A program made the position numbers and the translations under genes. This document shows, in pieces, positions 9,113-59,795 of a stretch of 64,000 nt of DNA. Position 1 is the first letter of the stretch; each line of letters opens with the position of its first letter. The notes below the pieces were generated by a model that did no database searches, was not told the origin of the DNA, and saw only the letters and a program-made list of their open reading frames with translations. The DNA comes from a virus: positions 143,656 to 207,655 of IMG/VR virus record IMGVR_UViG_3300020474_000001; one strand, given 5' to 3'.

Positions 9113-9121
9113 AATTTAAAT

Positions 9122-10146: not shown

Positions 10147-10167
10147 TGAAAAAAATATATTCTTGTT

Positions 10168-10590
10168 TTATTTATCAAGATCCTTAAGACCATTCTTTAA
10201 CAACTTTGATAGTTCTGCAGTTGATCCAACAAATAATGCATTATTTACTGTTGATGGACCTTTTGTTTTTACACTTTCCTCTTCAACATCTTTTAATTTT
10301 TTCTGAAGCTCCATCAACTTGTCTGTAGTGTCTGAAACATTCTTGATCAACTGTCCTAGAACTTCGTATGCTCTTGGTTGTTCTGTTTCTTGTGCCAATT
10401 CAAGAACACTATCTATTGCTTCCTGACCTTTTTCTATAATTGAGTATAAGTTTCCACGAGTGTATTCATAATCTTTTTTAATATCTTCGACAGATGAGCT
10501 AATATCTTCTATCTTTTTTATCTTCTTACTTTCGACTTCCTTTGGTTCGATGTCGAAAGTTTCATTCAATTTATCAAATTTATCAGTCAT
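10168..10590 (-). CDS. 16: Small terminase subunit gp16
   Basis: 140 residues (T4 gp16 is 164). The middle is an extended coiled coil (about residues 30-100), matching the central oligomerisation region of T4-type gp16. The C-terminus VNNALFVGSTAELSKLLK is a typical cyanophage gp16 ending. It starts 2 bp after gp15. It recruits DNA and activates gp17. Confidence 0.88.
   Translation of the reverse strand: MTDKFDKLNETFDIEPKEVESKKIKKIEDISSSVEDIKKDYEYTRGNLYSIIEKGQEAIDSVLELAQETEQPRAYEVLGQLIKNVSDTTDKLMELQKKLKDVEEESVKTKGPSTVNNALFVGSTAELSKLLKNGLKDLDK
10169..10176 (-). promoter_or_regulatory. Late promoter before the gp16-gp17 linking genes
   Basis: GATAAATA on the minus strand, overlapping the end of gp16 and about 25 bp before the start at 10146. 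Confidence 0.55.
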
Positions 10591-10592
10591 AT

Positions 10593-11594
10593 TCAGAATA
10601 TATCTCCATTAAATCCAAAATCATCACCTTCTTCAACCAATACATCATCCTGTTGATTGATGATCTTAACTGCTGCTCCTCTCAAGTGAGAAGTGACTAC
10701 AGTTTTGTCTCTACCACGATCTACCAAAACTTTTGAATCGGAAATTGTTTTAATATATATCTGCTCTCCCTCAATATCAATATAAGAATCTTCTGTCAAC
10801 ACACTAGAGTCATCAACTTCAATAATAGTGGTTGATGCGTCAATATCCTTAGATACTATTGTCACAACATCTCCATTATAATCTTTAATTGCTCTAGGAG
10901 ATACTGAATAACTAAGTCCTCTAACCGCTGAGGTGCTAGATCGACCTTCCAGATAATTGATAGTAGCTTTCTTGATAATATCTTTCGATGCCGATGTAAC
11001 TGGACCAAATAAGTATGTCTTTGCGTTAAATTTTAAAGTATAAAGTAATACTCTTCTACTGGTAAAATCTCCAGTGTAATCATCTTGCATTGTGATATTA
11101 TCAAGAACAATCGGAATATCTCTTTTTTCTTTTATCCCATCAACTAACTCAATGGAAATATTATACGCAGGTTGAAAGTATGGAAGTATTTGCTCAATTA
11201 TTTGGAGCATATCATCATTGACCTTAGCCATTATACTAAGCTCAAATTGCATAGTGTATGGAACAGGCATATATGTCTTTTTGCACTCAGACCCATCTTC
11301 AGAGTCTATTGATACAAACTGCTGTGTTGTAGTTACCTTTCTAGATGAATCGTATGTTAATCCATTGAATTCGAATGACATTCTTGGGAGAGTGATTGCA
11401 GTTGATTTGTTTAAATCTGGAGACTGCTCTAATCTTGCAAGAAATTTTTGTGTTGGTCCATACGCAAGAGGAACTTTTACAACATCAAGCACATTGTTAC
11501 TACTATCAAAGTGCTTGATAGAAATATTGTTAAACATCGTGCCAAAGGCGATGATGGTTTTTCTTAATATTTCGTTATAAAAATACTCAAACAT
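10593..11594 (-). CDS. 15: Tail sheath stabiliser / proximal tail protein gp15
   Basis: 333 residues (T4 gp15 is 272). It forms the ring that closes the finished tail and joins it to the neck. The N-terminal two thirds carry segments typical of the family, such as FEYFYNEILRKTIIAFGTMF at the start and PMPVPYTMQFELSIMAKVNDD-like text at about 108-128. The last 100 residues are a Ser/Asp-rich extension with DYNGDVVTIVS and IDIEGEQIYI. It is placed between gp14 and gp16 as in T4. Confidence 0.9.
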   Translation of the reverse strand: MFEYFYNEILRKTIIAFGTMFNNISIKHFDSSNNVLDVVKVPLAYGPTQKFLARLEQSPDLNKSTAITLPRMSFEFNGLTYDSSRKVTTTQQFVSIDSEDGSECKKTYMPVPYTMQFELSIMAKVNDDMLQIIEQILPYFQPAYNISIELVDGIKEKRDIPIVLDNITMQDDYTGDFTSRRVLLYTLKFNAKTYLFGPVTSASKDIIKKATINYLEGRSSTSAVRGLSYSVSPRAIKDYNGDVVTIVSKDIDASTTIIEVDDSSVLTEDSYIDIEGEQIYIKTISDSKVLVDRGRDKTVVTSHLRGAAVKIINQQDDVLVEEGDDFGFNGDIF

Positions 11595-11615
11595 GACTAT
11601 TGCTTTTATATAAAA

Positions 11616-11623
11616 TATTTATG
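11616..11623 (-). promoter_or_regulatory. Late promoter before gp15
   Basis: CATAAATA on the minus strand, about 22 bp upstream of the gp15 start and overlapping the end of gp14. Confidence 0.55.
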
Positions 11624-13037
11624 GGGTTCCAAATGGATTTATTTCAGAGAAATCAATGATATCATCTGACTCTGCTTCAATATTATAATTATCGGCAAAA
11701 CCATCATCAGTTGGAAATTTATCGACAAATAAAATCCTATGTGTTGCTTTTGATTCTGAACCAGTCAATATTTCTCCAATTTTGAACTCTCCAGATATAT
11801 GAGACAATTCTAGAACATTTGTATAATTCCAAGTTCTAACTCTTGCTGTAGTTCCACTCTCAGAACCAGTTACAGTTTCATTGAAAATGAAGTTTCCTTG
11901 AGATTCCAAATATGGATTGGATATGGTTATCGCAGGAGCCTCTGTATACCCAACACCAGCATTAATTAGGTTGATTGTGGTGATTTGTCCATCAACACCT
12001 ATTACAGCGGTTGCAGACGCTCCTACGGTCGAATTACCGGCAATGGTGATGGTAGGTTGATCTATATATCCAAGACCAGGATTTGTAATCTCAAATGAAC
12101 CAACAACACCATCTGCAATTTGAGTTACAGCTTCCGCTCCATCTCCGCTACCAAAGAACTTTATACCAGGCGCTTCTGTGTATCCTGCACCAGTATTAAC
12201 AATATCAACATTCTGAACCAACCTAGAACGAGTTCCAAGAGTTGCATTATGTACATTTATGCCACCAATTAATCTTGTGGTCGCTATACCAGTAACTCCA
12301 CCACTAGGTGCAGATGAAAAACCAACCGTTGGATTATCAAAGTATCCACTTCCTCTATTTGTTATAGTTACCAATTGAATTCCACCATCAGCAATTGTAG
12401 CTGTTGCAGTAGCAGTAATACCAATACCTGTAACAAGAAGTGTCTGAGTTGGTCCAAGAATAACTGGAGTTCCGTCAGCATTTCTACCATCAATTTCATT
12501 TCCGATTAAATTGTCATCAATTTCATGAATATCGGTATCTATAATTTCATTTTCGTAGCGGAACAACTCACATCTCAACTCATACACATAGTTCTTCTGG
12601 AGTTGATAGAATGGTTTTTCATGTTCGACATATTTAATTTCATACAATCTATCACCTAAAGGAAGATATACTAAATCCCCTTCTTTTGGTCTAGATGATA
12701 ACTTAATATTTGGTTTATCCTTTATCAGAGGTTCGATATAGTTTTCCCATCTTTCTTTGGATATTACAAATGTAATTTCCTGAGTTTGCTCGATACCAAA
12801 CTTTGAGAGTAATACTGGATTTTCGGCATACCCGTCATAGTTTTGAATATATGCTTCTATTGGATATGAGTTTGTAAATGCAGACTGAGTAACTTCTCTT
12901 ACTATATCATTTTCACTTACGAATGATCTTGGCATGTAGTGAACCTCTATGCCATACATTCTTAACTGTTCGTTAATGATATCTTGAATTAAATTCTGCT
13001 CACCGGATGTTCCTTGAGTAAAAAATGGATTTAGCAT
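11619..13037 (-). CDS. 14: Neck protein gp14 with a large GxGY-repeat insertion
   Basis: Neck protein that joins head to tail. The N-terminal part MLNPFFTQGTSGEQNLIQDI and the region to about residue 175 match T4-type gp14, but the protein is about 472 residues against 256 in T4. Extra length at about residues 195-370 consists of repeats with GSGY, GAGY, GLGY and GVGY followed by a Pro-Ile/Val strand, which look like a beta-repeat domain. The ATG 1 bp after gp13 is preferred over one three codons upstream, but both are possible. Confidence 0.9.
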   Translation of the reverse strand: MLNPFFTQGTSGEQNLIQDIINEQLRMYGIEVHYMPRSFVSENDIVREVTQSAFTNSYPIEAYIQNYDGYAENPVLLSKFGIEQTQEITFVISKERWENYIEPLIKDKPNIKLSSRPKEGDLVYLPLGDRLYEIKYVEHEKPFYQLQKNYVYELRCELFRYENEIIDTDIHEIDDNLIGNEIDGRNADGTPVILGPTQTLLVTGIGITATATATIADGGIQLVTITNRGSGYFDNPTVGFSSAPSGGVTGIATTRLIGGINVHNATLGTRSRLVQNVDIVNTGAGYTEAPGIKFFGSGDGAEAVTQIADGVVGSFEITNPGLGYIDQPTITIAGNSTVGASATAVIGVDGQITTINLINAGVGYTEAPAITISNPYLESQGNFIFNETVTGSESGTTARVRTWNYTNVLELSHISGEFKIGEILTGSESKATHRILFVDKFPTDDGFADNYNIEAESDDIIDFSEINPFGTP

Positions 13038-13038
13038 A

Positions 13039-13887
13039 TCAACCAATCATATCTAGTGGTGGTAATTCGTATGTATTTGACATATCATCAAGGATGAATT
13101 CAATTTCTCTCTGCGCATCTTCATAGATCATTCTTCCATTTAACTCAACTCCTCCTGGGAGTTTTACTCCTTGGAATTTGATCAGATTCTGCCCCCACTG
13201 TCTCTTAACCAATGCTGTCAAATATCTCTTCAAGAAGGAATCGTTCCATACTCCAGTATATTCGTTTGGGTCTATGAGACGATAGCAATCAATAATCAAG
13301 TGCTCTCCTGCCTTTACAGCAGACCAATCGATATCAATATATAAGCGATCCATTCTCTGGTTAAATCTGATTTGCTTCTCAGTAGTTAACAAAAAGTTAA
13401 GATCTTCTAAGTATGTCTTAGTCATTGCATACTGAAGTATTTCCATAGAACCCCAGTAATACAAATCATTCAGGAACATTTGGTACTTCAAACTGAACAT
13501 ATTATTTGTAGTAGTATTTGCACCATCAAAGTGATATATCTTTGTGATTCCAATCACTGCTGGAGGAATTTGTAAATAGTTTCCTGCCTCATTATATGAG
13601 AATGTGACTGTACCTATACCAGAAACATTCGAGCTTGCAGTTGTAGTTGTTACACCAATATTCCCGTTTTCTTCTTTTGCTCTACCTCTATCAATATCGT
13701 CTTGAGTTACTTTATATTTCAAGAAAGTTTGCATTACACCGTCAAAGTGTCTTTCATGAAAATACTGCAAGGCATCATCGACCAAATCATCAAGTTGCTC
13801 ATCAGCGACATTAATTTCTAATACTGGAGCTCCTAGTTGCCTTTTACAATAGTTTATTAACTCAGACCTACTTGATGGTTGTGACAT
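13039..13887 (-). CDS. 13: Neck protein gp13
   Basis: 282 residues (T4 gp13 is 309). It completes the portal vertex after packaging. Recognisable segments are SRSELINYCKRQLGAPVLEINVADEQ at the N-terminus (in parts), ALQYFHERHFDG at about 37-48 and the C-terminal VKLPGGVELNGRMIYEDA. It is the first gene of the neck group and has a late promoter 30 bp upstream. Confidence 0.95.
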   Translation of the reverse strand: MSQPSSRSELINYCKRQLGAPVLEINVADEQLDDLVDDALQYFHERHFDGVMQTFLKYKVTQDDIDRGRAKEENGNIGVTTTTASSNVSGIGTVTFSYNEAGNYLQIPPAVIGITKIYHFDGANTTTNNMFSLKYQMFLNDLYYWGSMEILQYAMTKTYLEDLNFLLTTEKQIRFNQRMDRLYIDIDWSAVKAGEHLIIDCYRLIDPNEYTGVWNDSFLKRYLTALVKRQWGQNLIKFQGVKLPGGVELNGRMIYEDAQREIEFILDDMSNTYELPPLDMIG

Positions 13888-13912
13888 TTACTTAAAATAG
13901 ACCTATTAATAG

Positions 13913-13920
13913 TATTTATC
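13913..13920 (-). promoter_or_regulatory. Late promoter before gp13
   Basis: GATAAATA on the minus strand, 26 bp before the gp13 start. Confidence 0.65.
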
Positions 13921-13925
13921 ATGAT

Positions 13926-14186
13926 TTATATATCGCAGTCACCCCAGATACCAGTCTCTTGATATTTCAGTTCTTCATACATTTCTCTTCTAGAATCTTC
14001 TTGATGAAATACAGACCAACACCAAGACAATGCCATTTTCCGCAATTCCTCAATGTCATCACATTCTTCAATCATTGGGATCATATGCTTAAATTGTGGA
14101 TGCCGAGGTGGATTTTTAAAACACTCTTCTTTTAATTGCTCAAAATTTAACATATTTCCATTTAAGATAAGTTCATCATAATCCAT
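13926..14186 (-). CDS. Small acidic protein of unknown function
   Basis: 86 residues, MDYDELILNGNMLNFEQLKEE onward (in two halves), acidic, with Cys at positions around 22, 45, 57 and 84 and a Trp-rich middle (LSWCWSVFHQ). It overlaps the preceding small gene by 11 bp, so the two are likely coupled. It lies between the DUF4815 protein and gp13. No family recognised. Confidence 0.65.
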   Translation of the reverse strand: MDYDELILNGNMLNFEQLKEECFKNPPRHPQFKHMIPMIEECDDIEELRKMALSWCWSVFHQEDSRREMYEELKYQETGIWGDCDI

Positions 14187-14376
14187 CTGTCAACTTTTTT
14201 AACATCTCTTTAATATCGTTTATTTCTTCACGTATATTGTCAAGATCTATTTTGAATCTGTCTAATTTTTTGTCCTCTTTGATTTTGGAATTTCTTTTTG
14301 AAATGTATTCTTTATATTTTTCCGCATTTCTATTTGAAATAGAATTTGTTGCACCATCTCTTTCAAAATCGCTCAT
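14176..14376 (-). CDS. Short coiled-coil protein of unknown function
   Basis: 66 residues. After a Ser/Asn-rich start the rest is Lys/Glu/Ile-rich with heptad-like spacing (KKLDRF-IDLDNIREEINDIKEMLKKL), which predicts a coiled coil. It follows the DUF4815 gene by one base. Possibly a virion assembly helper; function unknown. Confidence 0.6.
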   Translation of the reverse strand: MSDFERDGATNSISNRNAEKYKEYISKRNSKIKEDKKLDRFKIDLDNIREEINDIKEMLKKLTDGL

Positions 14377-14377
14377 A

Positions 14378-17300
14378 TCATGCTAAAGCTATTACTTTTA
14401 AATTCTTAATTTTTGGAACTTGTACTTGATTCTTAGAAGTCATAATAATTTTTACTCTATATGAAATGAAAGAGGACAAACTGTCAGCAGTGAATGTATA
14501 TTCGGAATATTCCGATGACTTACTAATAATCTCATCAGATTTACCGCCATTCAAATCATCATATCCCGAGAATGGAACAAACGTTGGTTCAAATCCTTCA
14601 GAATCGCTGATTGCATAGAATGCTCTAATATCATTTTCTTCCATCAAGTCCGCATCTAGAATAATTTTTAATCCAGTGGCAGGATTATCAATATTCATCT
14701 CTTTCGAGATATATTGGCATGCAGTTGGATCTGTAAATATTTTATTAACTCTTCCATCCTCAGCATAATCTTCAATTATGTTATTAATACGGTTGGATGT
14801 AAGTATCATACTTACTCTTTCAGAATCAATGATTGGTGTAAGTTTTGAATTTGTTGTACTCAAGAATAATCTAAGGTTTGAAGACTTATTTCCTATATTT
14901 GCAGATAGTTTATTATCCTCATTTACTTTTGAACATATGATTCTTGGAGATTTGAGATAGTTTGGTTTATTGATTGAAATCTCTTCAAATCCAGTATTTA
15001 TAAATGGAACTTCATCTCCACTTTGTGACTGTCCGGTTGTAGTTCTCAATTGTGCTGATATGCTCGTTCCCTCAATGCTCAAATTATGAATGTTGGGAGT
15101 TACAATCTCGAATGGAATATTTTGAGTTGCTTTTGATAAATATCCTCCACATGTTTTTGTTTTATTTGCATGCAATTTCTGGAATCCAGCATCATTGCTT
15201 CTATCATCGTTATTTTGGTTGAAAACTTCTTCAGTATTCAACTTAATATGATATGAATCAAATGTTATTGGATCATCAACCTCAACATCTGAGAAGTTGT
15301 GAATTTTATTAACTCTTAGCAAGTTTACCCCATTAATCTCATACTTATAAACAGGTGTTCCCGATGGGTATGATTTGGAGAGAGTATTGTTAACACCTCT
15401 CAAGATTCCGCCAACTTGAGTGTCAGATACCTGATTATATTCAATGATTTCATCTTCAATCAACAGGAATCCTATATTTGTGGTTCCAACTCCAACGTTT
15501 TCAAAAGTTGAAAACTCTGAAGTATCATCTATTGATATTGGAGAAGTTGATTCTGAATCATATGCTAATGTCAGCTTGGTTGGTCTAACATCAGAAGAAA
15601 CTCCGAATATCTCTACCCTATTGTCACTTGAGTGCATACCGTGATTCTGGTGATTTATCTTGATGTGCAATCCATCAGAGTCAGTTACAATATTGTTGAT
15701 ATAAACTGGACCTTCACTATTATCTTTCATATCCGAAGACACTCCAGTGAGTCTCTTATATTGAAGTTTATTGTCTGATTGGTTGATTACGAAATCTCCT
15801 TGAACATTATCAAAAATCAACTCACTAGTCTCTCCAACAGTAGCAATAGTAAGTCTTGCACCAGATCCAGAACCAGTAGTAGTTATTCCCAACACATCAC
15901 CAACATTATATCCAGATCCACCGTCAGAAATTGTTGCACCAGTGATTTCTCCTGCAGAAAGTGTCACGTCTGCTTTTGCACCTCTACCATTACCAGTAAT
16001 TGTAGTCAAATTAATATCATCAAATGCAGTTGCACTTGCATCATACCCGGATCCAGCATCTGTTATACTCAATGTACCAGTAGCTGTTGCCGCCGTACCT
16101 ACTAGTGTTGCTGCTGCATTGGTTTTGTCTTGATAATAGACAACTCCAGGTGACAAAGCATAACTATCCATATCTGCAGAAGAACCCACTGCAGTTGACA
16201 ATCCAGCTCTTATTTTCTTTGCTTTGAATGATAAAGAATCTGGCATCAACTTAGCAATCTGACAATTTTGTGCAGAAAGTTGAGAATTGTAAAATTCAAC
16301 TGTCCCAGAATCTAAGAAATCTGCTCTATACATCGTAAACTTCAAATTCTCTGAAGAATTTGCTTCCCAGTCAGAAGTATTTTGTGATTTGAAAAGTGGT
16401 CCGAGATACGAATGATTTGATATATACGAATCTGAAATTATATCAAACTCACCAATTTTAGAAACAAATACACTATACTTTGTTGAATTTGATTTCAAAC
16501 AGATTGCATACTCAGAGTTTCCTCCTTCCAAATATACTGGAGATTTAAATTCAAATGAAGTTGCTATAGATCCATCTGCAGAAGTTTGAACATCTTCTGG
16601 ATTTATTGCAACTCTAGTTCCAGGTATAATCTTTTCTGATGGGACACCACTCTTCATGGGTCTTATTTGCATTTCAACAGGAATGCTATTTGCATCTTTT
16701 GTTCTAAAGAAAATATCGCATCGAGTTATAAAAATACCCGTTTCATCTTCCACTTTAAATGATTGTGCAAGTGGATCGTACCATGCAATAGTTTTTTCTT
16801 GAGATGAACTTGTTGATGATCCTGATACAAGTTCAGTATCAATAGCATCTCTAACAGAAGATAATTCAAATTCTGGTCTTTCTTGAACAAGTGGTGATCG
16901 AACAGATACTATGTTATCATTAACGGTTTCAATTATGCCAGAAGATGTAAATGTTCTCTCTGCTCTTGATATTACATCATTTGTATCGTTGCTTTCACTA
17001 CTGGTCAAAGTAAATGTTTTTTCTCCAGATTCAAAGTTTGGATTTGAAACTCTTGTAGAATCTGGAATATAAAAACTACCGAGTAAACAGGATGCTGAAT
17101 CTGATAATAATCTTATATTAGTTACAACTGCCTGTGCCCCACTATCCCTACCTGAAAGTGTCATTCCAACTTCCACTAATCCATAGTAAGAAGATTCAGA
17201 TTCACTTGACAGTGATAATGTATCTACATTTAATACTGTTGAAGTTGCTGAATATATTTCAGGTAGCTGTGTGTTATTGTATGGATTTTCATCATATACT

Positions 17301-38430: not shown

Positions 38431-39210
38431 TCAAATAATACGAGTCTTTTCATGTCCGACACGAATGCGTGGATCACAGAGAATACTAAAACCAGCTTTC
38501 TTTGCATCTAAACAAAAACTGACATCCTCGCCACACATGTCCTGCACTTCACCACTCTCAAATACTTGCATCTTAGGTGCAAACCATGGATATGGTAATC
38601 CCTTATCCTCAAATACTCCCTTCCGAATTAACATCCACCCAAATCCTGCATAATCTACAGTGAATGGTTCGGTACGACCACTTAGACTTGTTAATGTCTC
38701 GTGATTCATTACCCCACCGTTATCCTTGAATCCATTCTCATCCATCCAATGTGCAACACTCGATGACTTGCCATCTTCTGTACAATACCATCCAGTCGTA
38801 ATTGCATTCTTCTTTCCTTCCTCAGGTTCTGCTAATGCACATAACTGCCAGAATTTCTCCGTGTTGAATACAATATCACTATCAATCCATAATTGATAAT
38901 CATACTCTAACTTACCGTCCCATGGCTCTTGGTCGGGTCCCCTCAATACATTGGCACCCAAACATTTGCAACGGGCGAAATTTACCATTGAACTGTAATC
39001 TTGACTAATCTGTATAGCCATTCCATTCTGTACTAAGTCAAAACATAATTGCACAAAATTTTTGAGAAATGTATACGATACTCCCCTGCCTGGAAGGCAA
39101 AATACAATCGTCTTCCCTCTCATACTCTCTTTGATACTCTCGTAATCCCACTCAGGCTCTGATACACTCACAGCAGCGGCATCCTCCTTGATACTGAATC
39201 CTTTAGACAT
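38431..39210 (-). CDS. Glycosyltransferase-like protein (GT-A type)
   Basis: 259 residues with features of GT-A fold glycosyltransferases: an N-terminal strand TIVFCLPGRGVSYTFLKNF (34-52), a DxD-type metal site LWIDSDIVF (107-115), GEDVSFCLDAKKAG (227-240) with an acidic pair, and a late His in RVGHEK (250-255). It would transfer a sugar from a nucleotide donor; donor and acceptor are unknown. A strong sigma-70-type promoter lies 24 bp upstream, so it is probably expressed early. Confidence 0.75.
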   Translation of the reverse strand: MSKGFSIKEDAAAVSVSEPEWDYESIKESMRGKTIVFCLPGRGVSYTFLKNFVQLCFDLVQNGMAIQISQDYSSMVNFARCKCLGANVLRGPDQEPWDGKLEYDYQLWIDSDIVFNTEKFWQLCALAEPEEGKKNAITTGWYCTEDGKSSSVAHWMDENGFKDNGGVMNHETLTSLSGRTEPFTVDYAGFGWMLIRKGVFEDKGLPYPWFAPKMQVFESGEVQDMCGEDVSFCLDAKKAGFSILCDPRIRVGHEKTRII

Positions 39211-40383: not shown

Positions 40384-40415
40384 ATCTATAGGCACTGTGC
40401 CAGTTTGCCAACTGG
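40384..40415 (-). promoter_or_regulatory. Palindrome-type promoter/operator P1
   Basis: Palindrome CCAGTTTGCCAACTGG (40400-40415, perfect 6-bp arms) with a TATAGAT box at 40384-40390 reading leftward. The box is 5 bp from the conserved GGCACA edge. It lies before the gene at 40361. The same layout recurs at P3, P5, P9 and P10. Confidence 0.6.
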
Positions 40416-40477
40416 TTTTGACTGGTTTTGAAATGTTAAGAGTTGTGAAATATTCGCGATTCTGCCTCTCGGTGCGC

Positions 40478-40558
40478 TACACTATGGGAGACAACCAAAG
40501 GAGGGGTGAGGTAGCCCTGATGACGCCAACGGTCGCCACTCCCCCTGCAATCAATTAA
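40478..40558 (+). ncRNA. Hairpin-micropeptide element, copy A
   Basis: Plus-strand -10-like TACACT (40478-40483), then leader and a hairpin with stem 40503-40507/40514-40518 (GGGGT/GCCCT). Directly after it comes a 12-codon frame at 40520-40558, MTPTVATPPAIN, stop TAA. Three further copies exist (B, C, D). Conserved pairing and reading frame suggest a structured mini-transcript; whether the peptide is made is unknown. Confidence 0.6.
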
Positions 40559-40599
40559 GTATATCATTTTGTTACAAAATCCCTGTCAATGGGTTGTGT

Positions 40600-40617
40600 G
40601 CCACTATGGCGGGTGTC
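40600..40617. repeat. Degenerate copy of the 18-bp palindrome
   Basis: GCCACTATGGCGGGTGTC, flanked by TGTG and ACAC, at the 3' side of copy A, at the position palindromes take beside copies B and C. It overlaps the end of the GP88-family gene (stop at 40616). Confidence 0.5.
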
Positions 40618-41413
40618 ACACCCCGGCATGCTGTTGCTTATATGGTTTCAAAAATGCGGCGTTAAGTTTTACTTTAGCGTTAAGATTCGACTCCTTTGAC
40701 TGACCGCCGTGCAGCAACAGTGCAAAGGGACCATCCATGAAACAGCGTTCTTCGTGGCGGTACTCGACACCGTCAATTGGCAGATTCAGTTCTGCCGCTT
40801 CTGCAATATCCTGCACGACCTTTACATAGCGAGGGAACCTGCCAGCATCAATTAATGCATCATATCTGCCGCCATAAGATGCTGTCATATAGAAATTATC
40901 AGGCAAAATAACACTGCGGAACAAGTGCAACGACTTAGAGTAGCAATAGAATTTAAGACCTGGCATTCTCTTGGCGACCTTAATCCATGCTTTTAAATAC
41001 TCAATATTGAAAAAATCACCAGACTCATGTATACGAATGCGAGTATACTTACGGCGGCGCTTCTTTAACTCTACCTGAATCGATTGATAGATTAACTCCT
41101 CAATATTGTCACTAGCATTAATTAAATCAAAATTATGCTTTCGTGCATCATAAACTGCAGGATATTGTGCTTCAGCACGGGCAGCGAAACAAGTGAATTC
41201 AGTGTTATCACCACGCACTAGATTGCGCTTGCCGCTGTTAACAACTGCCCATGCCCTACACTTATCAGCACCGGGACAGGTTCTACCCGCAGGCAGGTTG
41301 AAAATCAAGGTGTCGGGGTGCAGTTTAGCGTTGCCAGCGGAGAACTTAAGAAGCATGGATCTGAGGTCGATTGATACCAGTATTGCCGGGATTCGCATGC
41401 ATGCTGGGGTCAT
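40616..41413 (-). CDS. GP88-family protein
   Basis: 265 residues if the first ATG is used. The conserved body starts at MLLKFSAGNAKL, so the ATG at 41356 may be the true start. Family marks (phage 'gene product 88' type): NAKLHPDTLIFNLPAG (28-43), TCPGADKCRAW (45-55), TCFAARAEAQYP (74-85), RIRIHESGDFF (125-135) and FYCYSKSL (155-162). The four Cys (46, 52, 75, 224) resemble a metal site. Biochemical role is not established to my knowledge. It is flanked on both sides by hairpin-micropeptide elements. Confidence 0.85.
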   Translation of the reverse strand: MTPACMRIPAILVSIDLRSMLLKFSAGNAKLHPDTLIFNLPAGRTCPGADKCRAWAVVNSGKRNLVRGDNTEFTCFAARAEAQYPAVYDARKHNFDLINASDNIEELIYQSIQVELKKRRRKYTRIRIHESGDFFNIEYLKAWIKVAKRMPGLKFYCYSKSLHLFRSVILPDNFYMTASYGGRYDALIDAGRFPRYVKVVQDIAEAAELNLPIDGVEYRHEERCFMDGPFALLLHGGQSKESNLNAKVKLNAAFLKPYKQQHAGV

Positions 41414-41417
41414 TGTG

Positions 41418-41433
41418 CCACTATGCCAACTGG
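41418..41433. repeat. Palindrome P2 before the GP88 gene
   Basis: CCACTATGCCAACTGG, preceded by TGTG, ends 5 bp before the outer ATG of the GP88-family gene. It is a member of the 18-bp palindrome family, with one weaker arm and no evident -10 box at the usual spacing. Confidence 0.6.
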
Positions 41434-41495
41434 TTTGAAACGTTACAAGATGTTAAAGGTTCGTGAATCTGCCGCACTTCCCCCATCCGATACGC

Positions 41496-41575
41496 TATGA
41501 TGTGGGAACAACAGAAGGAGGGGCAGGGCAGCCCTGATGACGAAAAAAGGCGACACTCACCCTGCAACGAAATAA
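41496..41575 (+). ncRNA. Hairpin-micropeptide element, copy B
   Basis: Plus-strand -10-like TATGAT (41496-41501), AGGAGGGG leader, hairpin GGGGC/GCCCT ending one base before ATG, then a 12-codon frame at 41537-41575, MTKKGDTHPATK, stop TAA. It has the same spacing as copies A and C. The last stem pair is C-G here against U-G in copy A and U-A in copy C. Confidence 0.6.
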
Positions 41576-41606
41576 TCATAAGATATGTGACACTTTATGA
41601 ACTGTC
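41574..41606 (-). promoter_or_regulatory. Palindrome-type promoter/operator P3
   Basis: GACACTTTATGAACTGTC (41589-41606) with a leftward TATGATT box at 41574-41580, 5 bp from the TCACA edge. It lies between hairpin elements B (plus) and D (minus), which converge on it. A second, weaker palindrome, CCACTTTTATATGTGG, follows at about 41612-41627. Confidence 0.6.
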
Positions 41607-41647
41607 ACAGTGCCACTTTTATATGTGGTTTTATTACATAATTGTAT

Positions 41648-41701
41648 TTTATGGCAGGGTAAGTGGCGATCGTTGTCGTCTTCGGTGCTACCTCACACCT
41701 C
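41648..41701 (-). pseudogene. Hairpin-micropeptide element, inverted degenerate copy D
   Basis: Minus-strand homologue of copies A-C. The hairpin keeps all five pairs (GGTGT/GCACC), including a U-A pair where the others have G-C. The codon at the ATG position is AAG (41680-41682), the frame continues TTTIATYPAIK, and the stop codon is absent. So the RNA stem is kept while the reading frame has lost its start and stop. Confidence 0.6.
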
Positions 41702-41834
41702 AATAAATTGTAACAATCAGAGCATAATGGTGTTTCCCAACTGATCGTATCTTAGCACAGCAGGAGCAGATCCGTGACCCACTCCGTAACATAATGAAAT
41801 ATTATCACTTTGCCAGCATAGAGTTTGAGTGATA
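41702..41834. other. Intergenic leader between copy D and the next gene
   Basis: No gene recognised. It would carry the promoter side of the inverted copy D. No consensus -35/-10 pair is evident to me. Confidence 0.4.
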
Positions 41835-42059
41835 TTATTCTTCCTCCTCCTCTACTTTTACGACCTTGAGTTTACCTGCGGCAATAAGATCCAACAGCAT
41901 ACCAGTCGATCCCTTCAAAATACCGTCTCCGTCAATACGCAGACACTGAAATTCTTTGGCAATGTCATCTACAATGTCCGGCGTTATTTCCCCACAACGG
42001 ATGGCATATACTCGTCTTGTATGCTCGTCGTTGATGTCAAGACCCAAATAGTTTCTCAT
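41835..42059 (-). CDS. Small acidic-tailed protein of unknown function
   Basis: 74 residues, MRNYLGLDINDEHTRRVYAI onward, ending KVVKVEEEEE. It is a compact helical protein of the kind packed in cyanophage early regions. It is separated from the upstream gene by a 50-bp spacer full of GAAGRTGA repeats. No family recognised. Confidence 0.7.
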   Translation of the reverse strand: MRNYLGLDINDEHTRRVYAIRCGEITPDIVDDIAKEFQCLRIDGDGILKGSTGMLLDLIAAGKLKVVKVEEEEE

Positions 42060-42110
42060 GATGATGAAGATGAAGATGATGTTAGCGAAGGTGATGATTG
42101 TGAAGGTGAT
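42060..42110. repeat. GAAGRTGAY repeat spacer
   Basis: The whole 51-bp gap between two minus-strand genes consists of imperfect repeats GATGATGAAGATGAAGATGA then GCGAAGGTGATGATTGTGAA. They are related to the spacers at 43.8, 58.4 and 59.7 kb. Confidence 0.6.
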
Positions 42111-42347
42111 TCAATACTGTGGATCAATGAACATAACAGTGCAGGATCCACGCGGACGAAGAATAATGGTTTCGCCACATTCTTCTCGGTCACATTTCAC
42201 TCCAGATAATCCTATTGCTTCCTTACATGCTAGGACAATCTGTCGATCAGTGGCACAATCTGAGAGACTAATTGTCTCCCGATCACACCAACTGTAGTTT
42301 GCTTCACCACCGAATGTGTCAGTGTACTCAACCTTAAAGTTCTGCAT
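42111..42347 (-). CDS. Small protein of unknown function
   Basis: 78 residues, MQNFKVEYTDTFGGEANYSW onward; Cys at about 21, 31, 40, 52, 57 and 69. The N-terminal beta-hairpin-like FKVEYTDTFGGEANYSW resembles other small cyanophage proteins I have seen without assigned function. It is a stand-alone gene between repeat-bearing spacers. Confidence 0.75.
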   Translation of the reverse strand: MQNFKVEYTDTFGGEANYSWCDRETISLSDCATDRQIVLACKEAIGLSGVKCDREECGETIILRPRGSCTVMFIDPQY

Positions 42348-42385
42348 GATTCAAAAAAAGAATAAAGTTTGCGGGTAAAATCTTA

Positions 42386-42649
42386 TCAGGTGTGAGTGCT
42401 ACCATCAGGTAACATGCAACCGTGAAGACCACAATTTGGCAAAATACCTTCGATGATGACACTGTAGGTGCCATTATGATGGTTTCCTTGCACATCTTCC
42501 TCCACCATTAACCCCTGCATAAGTTCAACAACACTCTTGCCTGTTTGTATGCTCCACATAGAAAACTTTGCGAGTTGCTGATAAGTCAGAACCTGGAAGT
42601 GATCACCCAGGGTTCCATCAGATTCGAGAAGTGGTGCTCTGTAACGCAT
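42386..42649 (-). CDS. Small protein of unknown function
   Basis: 87 residues, MRYRAPLLESDGTLGDHFQV onward, with a helical middle (FSMWSIQTGKSVVELMQGL) and a C-terminal CGLHGCMLPDGSTHT segment. It lies downstream of two palindromes at 42.69-42.73 kb. No family recognised. Confidence 0.7.
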   Translation of the reverse strand: MRYRAPLLESDGTLGDHFQVLTYQQLAKFSMWSIQTGKSVVELMQGLMVEEDVQGNHHNGTYSVIIEGILPNCGLHGCMLPDGSTHT

Positions 42650-42685
42650 TTGGTTGGTTGCGATTGATATAAGTATGGGTCAGAG

Positions 42686-42727
42686 TGGACAACTTATCAA
42701 CCTCAGAGTGACAGTTTGCCAAGTGTC
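42686..42727. repeat. Two copies of the 18-bp palindrome (P4)
   Basis: GACAGTTTGCCAAGTGTC at 42710-42727 is a clear copy with paired outer and inner arms; GGACAACTTATCAACCTC at 42686-42703 is degenerate. Both lie upstream of the minus-strand gene starting at 42649. Confidence 0.65.
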
Positions 42728-42738
42728 CACTAATGTTA

Positions 42739-43104
42739 TCAAGCGATTGCCCTTTCTATCATTTTAATAATAAGTTCACTTGGCGCTACAATATCATTAA
42801 CTACGCTTTCTTCCCCCGTTGCTTCTAAGGGAACACAAGTTAAGTGCATCTTCCAATCATATTTTCTATTGTTGAAGAACAACATAGAATAATCTACAGC
42901 ATCGACAATATCAGCACCGATAACAGCAAGGGATTTTGTATTCTTTTCTTTGCTAACTTTCCATTCTTTGACAGGTTCCATACCTTCGCCGTCGAGAACA
43001 TCAAACGCAACAAGATTCCAACCTGCATCATCAAGTTTGCGAATAATCTTCCGGGCGTTGCTGCATGTCTTGGAGATTGCCATGGGGTTGATGTAACTGA
43101 ACAT
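42739..43104 (-). CDS. Protein of unknown function
   Basis: 121 residues. The body contains NARKIIRKLDDAGWNLVAFD (about 16-35), EWKVSKEKNTKSLAVIGADI (about 47-66) and a C-terminal helix. The first seven residues before MAISKTCS may not be used. It is preceded by the P5 palindrome promoter and shares leader CCTGAGATCTCG with the gene at 40143-40361. No family recognised. Confidence 0.7.
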   Translation of the reverse strand: MFSYINPMAISKTCSNARKIIRKLDDAGWNLVAFDVLDGEGMEPVKEWKVSKEKNTKSLAVIGADIVDAVDYSMLFFNNRKYDWKMHLTCVPLEATGEESVVNDIVAPSELIIKMIERAIA

Positions 43105-43128
43105 ATAATCATCGAGATCTCAGGACCA

Positions 43129-43161
43129 ATCAATACCAGCTGTGACAGTTCACCAAGTGTC
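43129..43161 (-). promoter_or_regulatory. Palindrome-type promoter/operator P5
   Basis: GACAGTTCACCAAGTGTC (43144-43161) with a leftward TATTGAT box at 43129-43135, 5 bp from the TGTCACA edge. The expected transcript starts close to the GAGATCTC leader and runs into the gene at 43104. Confidence 0.65.
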
Positions 43162-43193
43162 CACCGATGCCCTCAGAGGCACCTAGGAGGCGC

Positions 43194-43272
43194 TATAATA
43201 TAAACAAATCAGAAGAGAGGTGGGGTAACCTCGATGACAACAAATATCGACACTACTCCTGCCATAAAATAA
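43194..43272 (+). ncRNA. Hairpin-micropeptide element, copy C
   Basis: Plus-strand consensus -10 TATAAT (43194-43199), leader, hairpin GAGGT/ACCTC ending one base before ATG, and a 12-codon frame at 43234-43272, MTTNIDTTPAIK, stop TAA. The second stem pair is A-U here and G-C in the other copies. Confidence 0.65.
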
Positions 43273-43553: not shown

Positions 43554-43585
43554 GCTGCCCAAGATCACAAGGTCTCAGAGGGTTT

Positions 43586-43626
43586 CATAAGACTTTACAT
43601 AAGACTTTACATAAGACTTTACATAA
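43586..43626 (+). repeat. 12-bp tandem repeat
   Basis: CATAAGACTTTA is repeated three times with a partial fourth copy, about 35 bp downstream of the plus-strand promoter. Confidence 0.85.
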
Positions 43627-43752
43627 CAATTCAAAATATAAACACTACTTATATTAGATATAAGAAAAACAAATACATCATCCCTTAGCAGACAAATACA
43701 TACATGTCAAGAGATAAGTTACAAAATTTAAGATAATTTTTGTTACATATTA

Positions 43753-50642: not shown

Positions 50643-50947
50643 AGGAGAACCTTCAAACTTTGAATCGTCTTTAATAGGATACCTTGATTCTTTGAGTTGG
50701 TCTCCCTCAATTTCTTATATCTTTCTGAAGGAGTCATTTCAATATCTTCATGTTCAAATGTATTCGTAAGGGCAACATCAAGTTGCTTGACAACATTCTC
50801 TACAATCTTAATATACTTTTGTTGCTGCCCCATTTGACAGTTCAAATCCTGAAGACCATCAATGGTATGATCCCATTGTGAATCTTCTGGTGCAAATTGT
50901 TTGACTAATTCGATTGTCTTTTCAAGATCATCGATAGACAGTTTCAT
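50639..50947 (-). CDS. Coiled-coil protein of unknown function
   Basis: 102 residues, MKLSIDDLEKTIELVKQFAP onward, almost wholly helical with heptad-like segments (KYIKIVENVVKQLDVALTNT). Overlaps the upstream gene by 20 bp. Confidence 0.75.
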   Translation of the reverse strand: MKLSIDDLEKTIELVKQFAPEDSQWDHTIDGLQDLNCQMGQQQKYIKIVENVVKQLDVALTNTFEHEDIEMTPSERYKKLRETNSKNQGILLKTIQSLKVLL

Positions 50948-51569
50948 GACTTTTGATGGGTTGTTGATTAAATTGATTAGTTTTAGAGTGATTCAACCAT
51001 CGTTCGATCTCTTCGCGGTCTATGTATCTGCTAGAAGTCGTTTTCAAAAATTTGTTTAGTTTTTCAGTATCAACTTTGTCCTGTCTATACTTCATCCAAT
51101 TACTCAGTGATGCTTTCTCGATATTCTTATTTGTCACTTCTTTTGAAAACACGGACATTTTCAAATGCGGTGTCTTGCCTCTAAGGATGCTTCCTATACT
51201 GGTGTTTTGCTGCGTATAAGTCATTAAATAATCACCAGTAAATTCAATGCGGTTGAACATCTGCTCTCTTTGTTCATCGCAAGAGATATTGCCCCTTAGT
51301 TGGTGACTATGGGTGTAAACATCTCCAGTCTGATGATTTATCAAGCAATGCACTTCTTTATTGCCCTTTTCTCTAATTAGTGGATGATGCGCCATAATCT
51401 TGATATATTTCAGACTAGGAACTTCAGCATAGAATTTAAGGTCGTTCTTACCAGTTTTGTTGATGTAATCTTCGTTCAAGATTTCAGCATATTTGTTGGC
51501 ATAATTCCAACAAATTGTAGTATTGATGAACTTAGTTTGTTCATCTTGCATTTTACAATTTAATGACAT
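50928..51569 (-). CDS. 'CLINHQTGDVYTHS' family protein
   Basis: 213 residues from MSLNCKMQDEQTKFINTTIC; residues encoded further upstream (to 51641) look like leader sequence. The strand KEVHCLINHQTGDVYTHSHQ at about 71-90 matches the motif of the genes at 44972-45310 and 45402-45830. The C-terminal half (about 120-213) is Lys/Arg-rich and extra, including WMKYRQDKVDTEKLNKFLKT and IDREEIERWLNHSK. Function unknown. Confidence 0.72.
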   Translation of the reverse strand: MSLNCKMQDEQTKFINTTICWNYANKYAEILNEDYINKTGKNDLKFYAEVPSLKYIKIMAHHPLIREKGNKEVHCLINHQTGDVYTHSHQLRGNISCDEQREQMFNRIEFTGDYLMTYTQQNTSIGSILRGKTPHLKMSVFSKEVTNKNIEKASLSNWMKYRQDKVDTEKLNKFLKTTSSRYIDREEIERWLNHSKTNQFNQQPIKSHETVYR

Positions 51570-57196: not shown

Positions 57197-58383
57197 TTTT
57201 GTCCGATTGTTCGAGTGAGAGATTGACCTTGGTTGATAGAATCAATCACTGAGGATAAATTCCTAGTGGTTTTGATTCCGACCGTATCGTAGGCACATAC
57301 GGAGATCGTGCCAGCAGATTTAAGAATCACATTATGATTATCAATTCGCAATACTCTACCGATAGATTGTGTCGCTGCTGTAACATTTGGCGAGCGTAGG
57401 AAGATTACTGATTCGAGCGAAGGTATATTGATCCCCTCAGTTAATATATTGTAATGAAGTATTATGAAGCGGCATGTCCCGTTGTCCCCCCATTCTTTTA
57501 ACACTTCAAAGAACTGATCTCGACTAACATGCACATCATTGACGATTGCACCATGTTTTGATGTAATCGAGCACCAATTAAATCCTCTGGATTTTAATTC
57601 CTGGCGGAGATTGGTATTATAAAGCATCTCCATCATCTGTTTTGTGCTCCTGGCACACACTAGAACCTTGGATTTGCCATCATTATCAATAGTTTTGACC
57701 AGATTTTCTGCTTCTATTTCACGATTAAGGTCACTCTTTTTGACCTTAGGGAATGAGCTGACAGACAATTCTGGTGGTAAAATATATCCAGAGTCAATAA
57801 GTTTTTTTGTAACAACTCTATACAAGACATTTCCATACACTTCAATGTCATTCATGCCAGGTAAGTGAGTAACATTAGAGTGGGTAGGAGTAGCAGTGAA
57901 GAAATAACAGCGGTCGCTATTATCAGCAGCAAAGTGCTCCGTGCTAGGGAAAAAGTTTCTCTTAATACTATGGTGTGCTTCATCAAAATAGATTGTATCT
58001 GCATGAATACCTGCCTCCCGAAGTTTCTTAAGAGAGTGATAGGTTGTAAAAAAGATTTGATGATGATATGCTTGATCTGACCACCTGCGAATGTAGTTTG
58101 CATTTGTAGAACTCATGTGGTTGATTTGACCACTATGCACATGCAGCACAGCAGCATTTATTTCATGTTCAATGAACTCTTCGCATAATTGTTGTGCAAG
58201 AAGAATTCTTGGTGCAACAACAATATGCTTACCTGGAGTATCACCAAGAGAAGCAAATCTGTCGATGCAATCTTGCACCATACAAATGGTCTTACCTGAA
58301 CCTGTAGGCATGATAATCTGCCCATGATGATGAGATTTCATTGCGTCACATGCTTGACGCTGATATGGACGTAGATCAATCAT
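57193..58383 (-). CDS. SF2 DEAH-box helicase
   Basis: 396 residues of the compact T4 UvsW/RAD25-like type. Motifs: Q-like LRPYQRQA (4-11), Walker A MPTGSGKT (25-32), Ia IVVAPRILLAQQ (54-65), II DEAH (134-137), III FFTATP (161-166), V ILTEGINIPSLE and VI QSIGRVLRID. It probably unwinds branched DNA or RNA during replication or repair. Preceded by a repeat-filled spacer that contains no obvious promoter. Confidence 0.93.
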   Translation of the reverse strand: MIDLRPYQRQACDAMKSHHHGQIIMPTGSGKTICMVQDCIDRFASLGDTPGKHIVVAPRILLAQQLCEEFIEHEINAAVLHVHSGQINHMSSTNANYIRRWSDQAYHHQIFFTTYHSLKKLREAGIHADTIYFDEAHHSIKRNFFPSTEHFAADNSDRCYFFTATPTHSNVTHLPGMNDIEVYGNVLYRVVTKKLIDSGYILPPELSVSSFPKVKKSDLNREIEAENLVKTIDNDGKSKVLVCARSTKQMMEMLYNTNLRQELKSRGFNWCSITSKHGAIVNDVHVSRDQFFEVLKEWGDNGTCRFIILHYNILTEGINIPSLESVIFLRSPNVTAATQSIGRVLRIDNHNVILKSAGTISVCAYDTVGIKTTRNLSSVIDSINQGQSLTRTIGQK

Positions 58384-58483
58384 GCCGCTGAAGGTGACTT
58401 TGAAGGTAAATTATTTTGCTAATAATGACACCGAAGGTGACAATGAAGATTATTATGTGTCTGAAGATGACGCTGAAGGTGAC
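58384..58483. repeat. GAAGGTGAC repeat spacer
   Basis: The 100-bp gap upstream of the helicase start carries GCCGCTGAAGGTGAC, GACACCGAAGGTGAC, GAAGATTAT, GAAGATGAC and an exact copy of GATGACGCTGAAGGTGAC (58466-58483), the same 18-mer found three times at 59.65-59.78 kb. Confidence 0.7.
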
Positions 58484-58735
58484 TCAAAGATCAACACATG
58501 CACCCCGACGCATTTGTTGATAACTGCGACAATTACCAGGTCCACCGATAAAGCAATGCTTACCGTAGTAATAAGCAGCACAATTTCTTTCTCTCAACCC
58601 AAAGATTCGCGCCATTTCTTTCAGTGAAACTTCACCATTTGCACGGCGATACTCATTGAGTTGTTGAGTAATCTTTTTCGCAGCAGATGTGAAGCGAATG
58701 GAATTGCTAGAGTGAACCGTGATTTTACGAATCAT
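58484..58735 (-). CDS. Small basic protein of unknown function
   Basis: 83 residues, MIRKITVHSSNSIRFTSAAK onward; basic helices, then EVSLKEMARIFGLRERNCAA at about 35-54, which resembles a helix-turn-helix (LKEMARIFGLRERN), and a Cys/Gly-rich end. Possible DNA-binding protein; family not recognised. Confidence 0.65.
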   Translation of the reverse strand: MIRKITVHSSNSIRFTSAAKKITQQLNEYRRANGEVSLKEMARIFGLRERNCAAYYYGKHCFIGGPGNCRSYQQMRRGACVDL

Positions 58736-58771
58736 GATGAAGTTTGATTAACCTTTGTTCAGAGTGTAAAT

Positions 58772-58801
58772 CTCGTGAACATGCAAAACATACTCACGAG
58801 A
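58772..58801. repeat. Inverted repeat in intergenic spacer
   Basis: CTCGTGA (about 58773-58779) and TCACGAG (about 58795-58801) are exact complements around CATGCAAAACAT. The 58736-58842 gap holds no gene. No T-run follows, so a regulatory or RNA hairpin role is possible. Confidence 0.5.
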
Positions 58802-58842
58802 CAGTTGAGACGCAACGTGCGAAAGGTGAAGCAAATCAGGAA

Positions 58843-59052
58843 TTATTCTTCCTGCTCTACTTCTTTTTCCTTCACAATTCTCGGTCCTTTGAAAACTCGA
58901 TCGTTTTCATAGAAACTTGCCACTCTTTCTCTCCGTGCCTGCAAAAGCATTTCATACTGCTCTTTTTGCTCTTTGGTGTATCTGAAATCTTGATCTTTCC
59001 AGATTTTCCTCAGATCTTGCAGATGATGCAGGACATTTAATGTTTCTTCCAT
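58843..59052 (-). CDS. Small highly charged protein
   Basis: 69 residues, MEETLNVLHHLQDLRKIWKD onward; helical, Glu/Lys/Arg-rich (KEQKEQYEMLLQARRERVAS) and ending VKEKEVEQEE. Common cyanophage type, function unknown. Confidence 0.75.
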   Translation of the reverse strand: MEETLNVLHHLQDLRKIWKDQDFRYTKEQKEQYEMLLQARRERVASFYENDRVFKGPRIVKEKEVEQEE

Positions 59053-59054
59053 AG

Positions 59055-59199
59055 TCAGTAATCAAAGTCAGAGTGGATGTATTTTTGAAGATCAAATTTT
59101 TCTCCCTCTTCAATTAGGTCGAAAATTGTTTGATCTTCCATCATGTCGAAACTGATAAGTTCTTCGACTTGATCTTCTGTAAGAAAATTTCCGGACATA
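59055..59199 (-). pseudogene. 47-residue acidic gene interrupted by one extra base
   Basis: The start codes MSGNFLTEDQVEE. Then the frame is broken: without one A in the AAA at about 59158-59160 it would continue LISFDMMEDQTIFDLIEEGE and on to HSDFDY with stop at 59055. As it stands the start frame ends after 29 codons. The two halves form one typical small acidic cyanophage protein. Sequencing error, real decay or programmed frameshift cannot be told apart. Confidence 0.55.
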
Positions 59200-59204
59200 A
59201 AATC

Positions 59205-59636
59205 TCAGAATGAACAACCAGTTTCTTGAGACAACTGAGCACAGAACTTAGCAGTCAATGGAGATTGAATGCTTTGAAGTTTCTTACGAAGATCATACAT
59301 CTTCACACGATTCTTAGTGAAGTGTGCCAGGCGATCAGAGATGGAGACAAGTTGAAGAAAATTGGAAATCTCGATTGAGTTGGAAGAACCGAGAAGAAAA
59401 TGCATAGCAACAAAAGAATGGTACTTGTTGCTAGAACGGCACTCTTTCAAGACAGAGACAATTTCTTTAGCAACCTCACCTGCTGTTGCAGGATAATAGG
59501 TTGAAAGAAAGTTTTTGGACTCTTGATAGATAAAACCGTCCCAATCAATTTGATATGACTGGGATTGTTGCTGTTCAAGCATGCTCTGGATCGAAGACAA
59601 AGTTGCTTGGATCTGGTCAAGGTCGATGGTTTGCAT
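59205..59636 (-). CDS. 143-residue protein of unknown function
   Basis: Starts MQTIDLDQIQATLSSIQSML. Gln-rich N-terminal helix, then helical FIYQESKNFLSTYYPATAGE (about 35-54) and a basic region (HFTKNRVKMYDLRKKLQSIQ), ending QETGCSF. Its upstream spacer is full of repeats. No family recognised. Confidence 0.75.
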   Translation of the reverse strand: MQTIDLDQIQATLSSIQSMLEQQQSQSYQIDWDGFIYQESKNFLSTYYPATAGEVAKEIVSVLKECRSSNKYHSFVAMHFLLGSSNSIEISNFLQLVSISDRLAHFTKNRVKMYDLRKKLQSIQSPLTAKFCAQLSQETGCSF

Positions 59637-59795
59637 AACCAGTTGGTTGATGATGACGCTGAAGGTGACTACGAAGGTGACCCCCTCGTGGACACAACAT
59701 ACACCATGATGACGCTGAAGGTGACGTAGGAAGGTGACACTTCATAAACTGTCCACCACTACATGATGACGCTGAAGGTGACGTGTGAAGGTGAC
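59637..59795. repeat. GATGACGCTGAAGGTGAC repeats with a palindrome
   Basis: Three perfect copies of GATGACGCTGAAGGTGAC (59652-59669, 59708-59725, 59765-59782), each followed by a second GAAGGTGAC, in a 159-bp gap without a gene. An 18-bp palindrome, GACACTTCATAAACTGTC (59736-59753), lies between copies two and three. Confidence 0.8.

Follow-up and report, generated by a model that had tools for sequence, protein, structure and literature searches.

T4-like cyanophages rank with the most abundant viruses of lakes and oceans, and we know of few non-coding RNAs in them. Among described elements of similar form, the Downstream-peptide and glnA glutamine RNAs (RF01704 and RF01739) have a very short reading frame downstream of an RNA structure and occur in cyanobacteria and cyanophages, while the nut and put antitermination sites of phages lambda and HK022 are short hairpins near the start of an early transcript that act in cis on co-directional downstream genes. 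The cyanophage RNAs that we found in the literature are manA, wcaG, PhotoRC-II, glnA, abiF and CfrI (PMC2864571, PMC9964418, PMC12197685); manA and wcaG lie in probable 5′ untranslated regions of metabolic genes and PhotoRC-II is found with psbA-type genes (PMC2864571). Here we analyse an element present in four copies, A to D, in a 64,000-base stretch of viral DNA (the window), which comprises bases 143656–207655 of the 207,655-base IMG/VR record IMGVR_UViG_3300020474_000001, apparently from a freshwater T4-like cyanophage. An initial annotation described the element as a hairpin joined to a 12-codon reading frame. With a probability of roughly 0.85, judged from comparative sequence analysis, we take the four copies to be genes of a small structured non-coding RNA of T4-like cyanophages.

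Hairpin covariation and family distribution

Copies A to D are the only four in the record, each being returned by an nhmmer profile built from all four with an E-value between 1e-23 and 2.5e-19, and the next match having an E-value of 4.6. Their coordinates and sequences had been quoted correctly, and in copies A, B and C the whole order of the unit is present on re-reading: a -10-like box, a purine-rich leader, the quoted stems, an ATG one base past the stem, 12 codons and TAA. The same outline holds only in part for copy D, where the stem pairs but AAG stands at the position of the ATG and TAC at that of the TAA. Four of the five stem pairs vary among the copies and all of them pair, as first noticed. 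A covariance model finds relatives well beyond the source genome, in dozens of other phage contigs, and the repeat unit is thus beyond chance.

The family has a consensus of a stem of 5–6 base pairs closed by an RRGGUA hexaloop (AGGGUC or GAUGUA in sub-groups), followed by the single-stranded stretch AAANN-UCGNCAC-N4-CCUGC-N7-UA and an AU-rich tail. Stems can differ completely from one member to another (GGTGA/TCACC, ACCGGC/GCCGGT, AGTTCG/CGAACT, GAGCT/AGCTC and GGCAGC/GCTGCC), and the loop and 3′ motif are near-invariant despite these free changes. Circularity was avoided with a test set whose members were picked by the 3′ motif and whose loops were located by their own sequence, pairing being unused. 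The four loop-proximal pairs of the stem are formed in 94–97% of the 105 unique sequences, as opposed to 42–60% with the 3′ arms shuffled, and up to six pair types occur at a single stem position; the ten exceptions are mostly false 3′ matches or mislocated loops. In the 99 clean members 98.0% of cells pair, a value which falls to 36–53% once one arm is slid by 1–3 bases. A mutual-information scan over 79 columns, corrected for background and weighted for redundancy, places exactly the four stem pairs at the top (0.76–1.24), ahead of a pair inside the -10 region (0.37), and RNAalifold returned the same five pairs, unprompted, from a smaller alignment. These controls are tree-free and cover column composition, shuffled or slid arms and redundancy weights. 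Within that scope, the covariation expected in a larger alignment is present, with the compensatory changes preserving pairing that characterise a structured non-coding RNA, and on this comparative evidence the hairpin is real and conserved. It is also the predicted fold of the nascent 42-nucleotide (nt) RNA in 105 of 118 members.

Three further structural features were considered and set aside. A pseudoknot between the RGG of the loop and the CCU of the 3′ motif is left uncompensated by natural variants (GCAGC for CCTGC; the GATGTA loop), an additional outer helix joining leader and linker is seen in some sequences only and gives no covariation signal, and a hammerhead-like CUGAUGA...GAAA is not conserved and is a coincidence.

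The extent of the family depends on how it is sought. The first query, a 24-base pattern which included the hairpin and GATGAC and so could reach ATG-bearing members only, matched 36 IMG/VR stretches, the great majority of which keep the -10 box, leader, hairpin and 3′ part. A first covariance model (R1, from alignment A1 of 27 sequences) detected extra copies in the same contigs, missed by the pattern because they have no ATG, as well as four copies apiece in two relatives of the window phage, two in the isolate S-SRM01 (88585–88665 and 90137–90218, minus strand) and one each in P-SSM2 (66480–66562, minus strand) and DSL-LC03. The number of copies per contig ranges from 1 to 11. Scanning IMG/VR with the 3′ motif alone (TCGNCAC-N4-CCTGC-NATNAAATA) gave at least 119 stretches, and the family counts reported here rest on the matches listed. 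A second model, R2, adds the isolate S-SSM7 and a weak hairpin-bearing relative in MED4-213 (E = 0.08); BLAST with whole elements recovered close isolates only. The carrier isolates are T4-like cyanophages of marine and freshwater hosts. Neither covariance model finds a copy in S-PM2, Syn9, Syn30, P-RSM4, S-SKS1 or S-CRM01, nor does R2 find one in Syn19, P-HM2, S-RSM4, S-SM1, S-SM2, S-SSM5, P-SSM4 or P-SSM7. A host origin was rejected after 84,980 bacterial and archaeal species genomes had been scanned with a strict ATG-containing pattern, which divergent host copies could escape, and had yielded two unrelated matches, neither of them cyanobacterial.

The densest array is on a 36.5-kb contig (IMGVR_UViG_3300044949_001148), with 11 divergent copies in 8.3 kb (bases 7434–15725) in both orientations, some of them only 50 nt apart. 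The S-SSM7 copy (NC_015287, 50921–50991, minus strand) is overlapped on the other strand by the hypothetical gene SSSM7_085 (50940–51125, plus strand), which may be a false gene call.

Promoters, neighbouring genes and transcript ends

Nearly all members have the -10 box at a near-constant distance. Upstream of it, 87 of the 119 listed members carry a palindrome with the consensus GTGCCAGTTNNNNAACTGGCAC (GTGCCAGTTN4AACTGGCAC; called at 9 or more of 12 positions), about 4.5 being expected after shuffling. The edge of the palindrome is usually 51–59 nt upstream of the stem, which places it some 30 nt ahead of the -10 box, a spacing shared by copy C, with copies A and B at about 60 nt. Members thus have a predicted promoter of their own immediately upstream, as a phage small RNA should. 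In P-SSM2 (NC_006883, ~53.9–68.8 kb) the same palindrome and TATAAT also precede protein genes of the early region, and the element and the divergent gene PSSM2_099 have one palindrome in common. The arrangement is found in element-free phages too, for example S-PM2 and P-HM2, which indicates that the RNA uses a general phage promoter class. We call this promoter early-type because of the gene region in which it occurs and its sigma-70-like box. A late-promoter reading of CATAAAATAA was rejected, there being no match to TATAAATA and T-tracts at that place in some members.

Independently of the RNA, the palindrome GTGNCANTTNNNNAANTGNCAC about 30 nt before TATAAT occurs at 9–16 sites in most genomes tested and at 0–3 in shuffles, with examples in the window (40397, 41415, 43142 and others), P-SSM2, S-SRM01, S-SSM7, S-PM2, P-HM2 and P-SSM4. 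By this sequence signature it is a palindrome-based early-type promoter class common to many T4-like cyanophages, including some without the RNA.

The neighbours of the element are mainly small hypothetical genes on the other strand, and the nearest downstream open reading frame is on the other strand in 78 of the 101 loci with a call, made with a crude gene finder. The same had been said of the window, where copies A, B and C do oppose nearly all flanking genes, which are on the minus strand, but copy D is co-directional with them. In 66 of 116 loci the convergent gene has an intrinsic terminator within 200 nt, mostly 20–34 nt past the CCTGC core, an almost fixed distance seen in about half of the loci. 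The 30 bases following CCTGC are 76–86% AT. From this layout, the 3′ end of the RNA could arise by cleavage in the AU-rich tail or by stopping at the shared hairpin, both being possible.

In 23 of 100 loci the RNA has a GP88- or DUF7227-family gene no more than 1 kb away, almost invariably on the opposite strand, and it often lies 76–83 nt past the stop of that gene. This neighbourhood is seen in the window (Table 1), in S-SRM01 (gp179), in DSL-LC03 (WJZ47951) and in about 23 IMG/VR loci. A 259-amino-acid protein encoded at window positions 38431–39210 (minus strand) has a homologue in every one of the five carrier genomes compared and in none of the five genomes without the RNA. It is probably a lineage marker, and a co-occurring gene was rejected as a candidate binding partner because carriers and non-carriers differ by lineage, which confounds the presence/absence profile. 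The window also contains dispersed GATGACGCTGAAGGTGAC-type repeats at 58377–59795 and 42052–42113 (repeat families D1, D2 and D4) and, in the gene-poor gap just beyond copy C, the 12-base unit TTACATAAGACT repeated in a short tandem array at 43583–43630.

Table 1. Positions of the four copies, their parts and adjacent features, numbered from the first base of the window.
Feature	Position	Strand	Basis
Palindrome GTGCCAGTTTGCCAACTGGTTT upstream of copy A, ~60 nt before -10 box	40397..40418	.	repeat family D7, operator scan
Copy A, whole unit	40478–40558	+	sequence
Copy A, -10-like box TACACT	40478..40483	+	sequence; aligned with family -10 box
Copy A, hairpin GGGGT-(GAGGTA)-GCCCT	40503..40518	+	sequence; family covariation
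Copy A, 12-codon frame MTPTVATPPAIN	40520..40558	+	present; not conserved across family
Copy A, conserved unpaired motif TCGCCAC-N4-CCTGC	40533..40548	+	family consensus
GP88-family gene, 265 amino acids; copy A on its 3′ side (convergent), copy B on its 5′ side (divergent)	40616..41413	-	Pfam PF17338, E = 2.7e-40
Palindrome upstream of copy B, ~60 nt before -10 box	41415..41436	.	repeat family D7, operator scan
Copy B, whole unit	41496–41575	+	sequence
Copy B, -10-like box TATGAT	41496..41501	+	sequence
Copy B, hairpin GGGGC-(AGGGCA)-GCCCT	41520..41535	+	sequence, covariance model
Copy B, 12-codon frame MTKKGDTHPATK	41537..41575	+	sequence
Copy B, conserved unpaired motif, variant GCGACAC-N4-CCTGC	41550..41565	+	3′-motif scan
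Copy D, full covariance-model match, 72.9 bits; AAG in place of a start codon, TAC in place of a stop	41644..41722	-	covariance model
Copy D, as first outlined	41648–41701	-	sequence
Copy D, conserved unpaired motif TCGCCAC-N4-CCTGC	41654..41669	-	3′-motif scan
Copy D, hairpin GGTGT-(GAGGTA)-GCACC	41684..41699	-	sequence, nhmmer profile
Palindrome GTGACAGTTCACCAAGTGTCCA upstream of copy C, ~30 nt before -10 box as in most members	43142..43163	.	repeat family D7, operator scan
Copy C, whole unit	43194–43272	+	sequence
Copy C, -10 box TATAAT	43194..43199	+	sequence
Copy C, hairpin GAGGT-(GGGGTA)-ACCTC	43217..43232	+	sequence, covariance model
Copy C, 12-codon frame MTTNIDTTPAIK	43234..43272	+	sequence
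Copy C, conserved unpaired motif TCGACAC-N4-CCTGC	43247..43262	+	3′-motif scan

Candidate modes of action

We lean towards a non-coding RNA that acts in trans rather than in cis, because most loci have no downstream gene to serve and the neighbours are mostly on the opposite strand. Each copy would be transcribed from its own early-type promoter, made up of the -10 box and, usually, the upstream palindrome. The hairpin would form about 15–20 nt from the presumed start and be followed by the conserved single-stranded stretch and then by the AU-rich tail, which would meet the terminator of the convergent gene. Early transcription, like action in trans, is a prediction of this model. The motif stays the same in phages with different hosts and the stems vary freely, which suggests a conserved partner that reads shape, loop and motif together, and the range of copy numbers suggests that dose matters. 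A conserved partner and a dose effect favour a decoy, a mechanism that we put forward tentatively and at less than even odds. As a stoichiometric decoy, the RNA would use its hairpin shape, purine loop and constant unpaired motif to present a binding site to one host-conserved partner, and additional gene copies would raise the RNA dose. More speculative again is the proposal in full, in which a multi-copy regulatory RNA from the phage early promoter class titrates a conserved picocyanobacterial factor, either an RNA-binding protein or the ribosomal (30S) anti-Shine-Dalgarno sequence, during host takeover. A covarying, multi-copy family in the cultured phages P-SSM2, S-SSM7, S-SRM01 and DSL-LC03 makes host takeover by a phage RNA directly testable.

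Several observations weigh against this picture. The loop RRGGU can pair with the anti-Shine-Dalgarno sequence ACCUCC, as the second candidate partner requires, but the energy gain is only slightly above that of control sequences and would be seen with any purine-rich loop; the complementarity of the element to the anti-Shine-Dalgarno and to Yfr1 is not clearly above controls. Yfr1 was rejected as a specific partner, complementarity being no better than in scrambled controls. Over the full 60–90 nt of the element, just 23 of 118 members have the hairpin as their minimum-energy structure. Different pairings are favoured in most full elements, so the hairpin may be held by a partner, form co-transcriptionally or be one state of a switch. 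Own-strand intrinsic terminators are scarce, with 9 of 116 members having one within 200 nt, which allows for long antisense transcripts. Finally, the RNA is not essential to T4-like cyanophages, since some 14 cultured members have no detectable copy.

A trans-acting RNA might instead work by antisense pairing, in which the unpaired UCGNCAC and CCUGC would pair with host or phage mRNAs and block or activate their translation, the hairpin stabilising or presenting the 5′ end. A long, near-invariant unpaired stretch beside a hairpin is the usual anatomy of a base-pairing RNA, as in Yfr1 with ACUCCUCACAC (PMC2190773), and for copy B one start region of the window phage gives a duplex energy of -30.2, unusually low beside the -23.9 ± 2.4 of shuffles. 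Across the 427 start regions of this phage, however, copies A and C give duplex energies typical of shuffled queries, and for all three copies the mean of the ten best sites is close to the shuffled value; we regard the antisense mechanism as unlikely, if a serious contender.

The scarcity of same-strand terminators would suit a promoter-proximal element that acts in cis, a put- or nut-like antitermination site or an RNA stabiliser, altering the elongation or decay of a longer transcript from the same promoter, and a hairpin about 15–20 nt after the presumed start is positioned like such sites. The co-directional downstream genes that nut and put sites serve are not what the loci show, since by the crude gene finder the downstream neighbour is mostly a gene of the opposite strand (78 of 101 loci) and its terminator, where present, is mostly 20–34 nt past the element. 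Moreover, other early genes with the same promoter type are without the element, and action in cis has only a small chance of being correct.

The short reading frame and comparison with known RNAs

The initial annotation counted the 12-codon frame as part of the repeated unit and pointed to two silent third-base changes; comparison across the family does not support the frame as conserved. An ATG follows the stem in just 13 of the 85 members found by ATG-blind means (33 of 121 members overall, 19 of which give 12 codons); elsewhere in the ATG-blind set the first triplet past the stem is AGG, TTG, AAG, TAG, CTG or another. There is no excess of third-position change and the variability of each column is near-equal in members with and without ATG. 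Both groups have NTC as 'codon 5' and a 'codon 3' ending in A, and several third positions (as in AAA, NTC and GNC) are near-fixed whereas variation falls on first and second positions. GAC is preceded by G with or without ATG, so that ATG is one state of an NNG column. The 'TAA' belongs to a nucleotide-level TA present in 23 of 23 ATG members and 92 of 95 others. The frame is not the conserved function, given an ATG in so few members and the same column conservation with or without it, and these sequences show neither the conserved start and frame nor the excess of silent third-position change that a protein-coding small reading frame should have. The apparent conservation of the peptide was seen only under queries containing GATGAC, a bias that disappears with the covariance model and the 3′-motif scan. 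A minus-strand reading frame starting at ATGGCAGG was also discarded, with early stops in several members and fixed third positions (read by eye).

That a translated peptide is the conserved function, with the hairpin tuning its ribosome-binding site, is in our judgement very improbable, the more so as copy D has neither start nor stop. Two observations speak for translation in places. TAA or TAG stands at codon 13 in 22 of 23 ATG members against 59 of 95 without ATG (p = 0.001, kinship-uncorrected), and in DSL-LC03 the ATGAC is displaced by exactly 3 nt, or one codon. A derived, translated subset, as in dual-function RNAs, is possible on these grounds, but would not be the rule, and the 12-codon frame beside the hairpin is mostly a coincidence, a chance ATG. 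The initial annotation had seen a true RNA and taken a chance ATG for a gene, and had no means of seeing the wide spread of the family.

Least probable of all is a replication origin of the T4 oriF type. A promoter, a short conserved transcript that could form an R-loop and the AT-rich stretch after CCTGC as a site of unwinding would fit, but a single 36.5-kb contig has as many as 11 copies, in many cultured relatives no copy is detected, and conservation falls on RNA stem pairs and a motif, beyond AT-richness alone. GC skew, a weak line of evidence, has no turning point at the copies.

The view that no named RNA family has this form is borne out by Rfam 15, whose covariance models (manA, wcaG, PhotoRC-II, glnA, Downstream-peptide, Yfr1 and abiF included) match neither the window nor any of 14 loci at the gathering threshold and, at E-values up to 5, give no overlapping match in six element-bearing loci. 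We found no description of the element in the literature searched, subscription papers and preprints being outside the search, and the cyanophage RNAs named at the outset differ from it in anatomy or context. Like manA, wcaG and PhotoRC-II (RF01745, RF01761 and RF01717), it is a structured RNA of T4-like cyanophages recognised by comparative genomics (PMC2864571), but it mostly stands alone against its neighbours, has a single hairpin and does not match their models. From the Downstream-peptide and glnA RNAs it is separated by the absence of a covariance-model match and by a short frame that is not conserved. It shares with nut and put sites a short hairpin near the start of an early phage transcript, but most of its neighbours lie on the opposite strand and it shows no order resembling boxA. 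CfrI, the antisense RNA of S-PM2, is likewise a cyanophage RNA opposite to its neighbours (PMC12197685); it is however about 225 nt long and tied to psbA, whereas the element is short, multi-copy and away from psbA, with no detectable copy in S-PM2. Among cyanobacterial RNAs, Yfr2-5 are also short and make up a multi-copy family whose position varies, and Yfr1 and Yfr10 are short as well, Yfr1 joining hairpins to an invariant unpaired motif (PMC1242208, PMC2190773). The GGAAACA repeats in the 5′ hairpin loop of Yfr2-5 (PMC1242208) are replaced here by RRGGUA, AGGGUC or GAUGUA, so that the mark of Yfr2 is absent, as is the ACUCCUCACAC of Yfr1. The element is best called a new family of phage small RNA.

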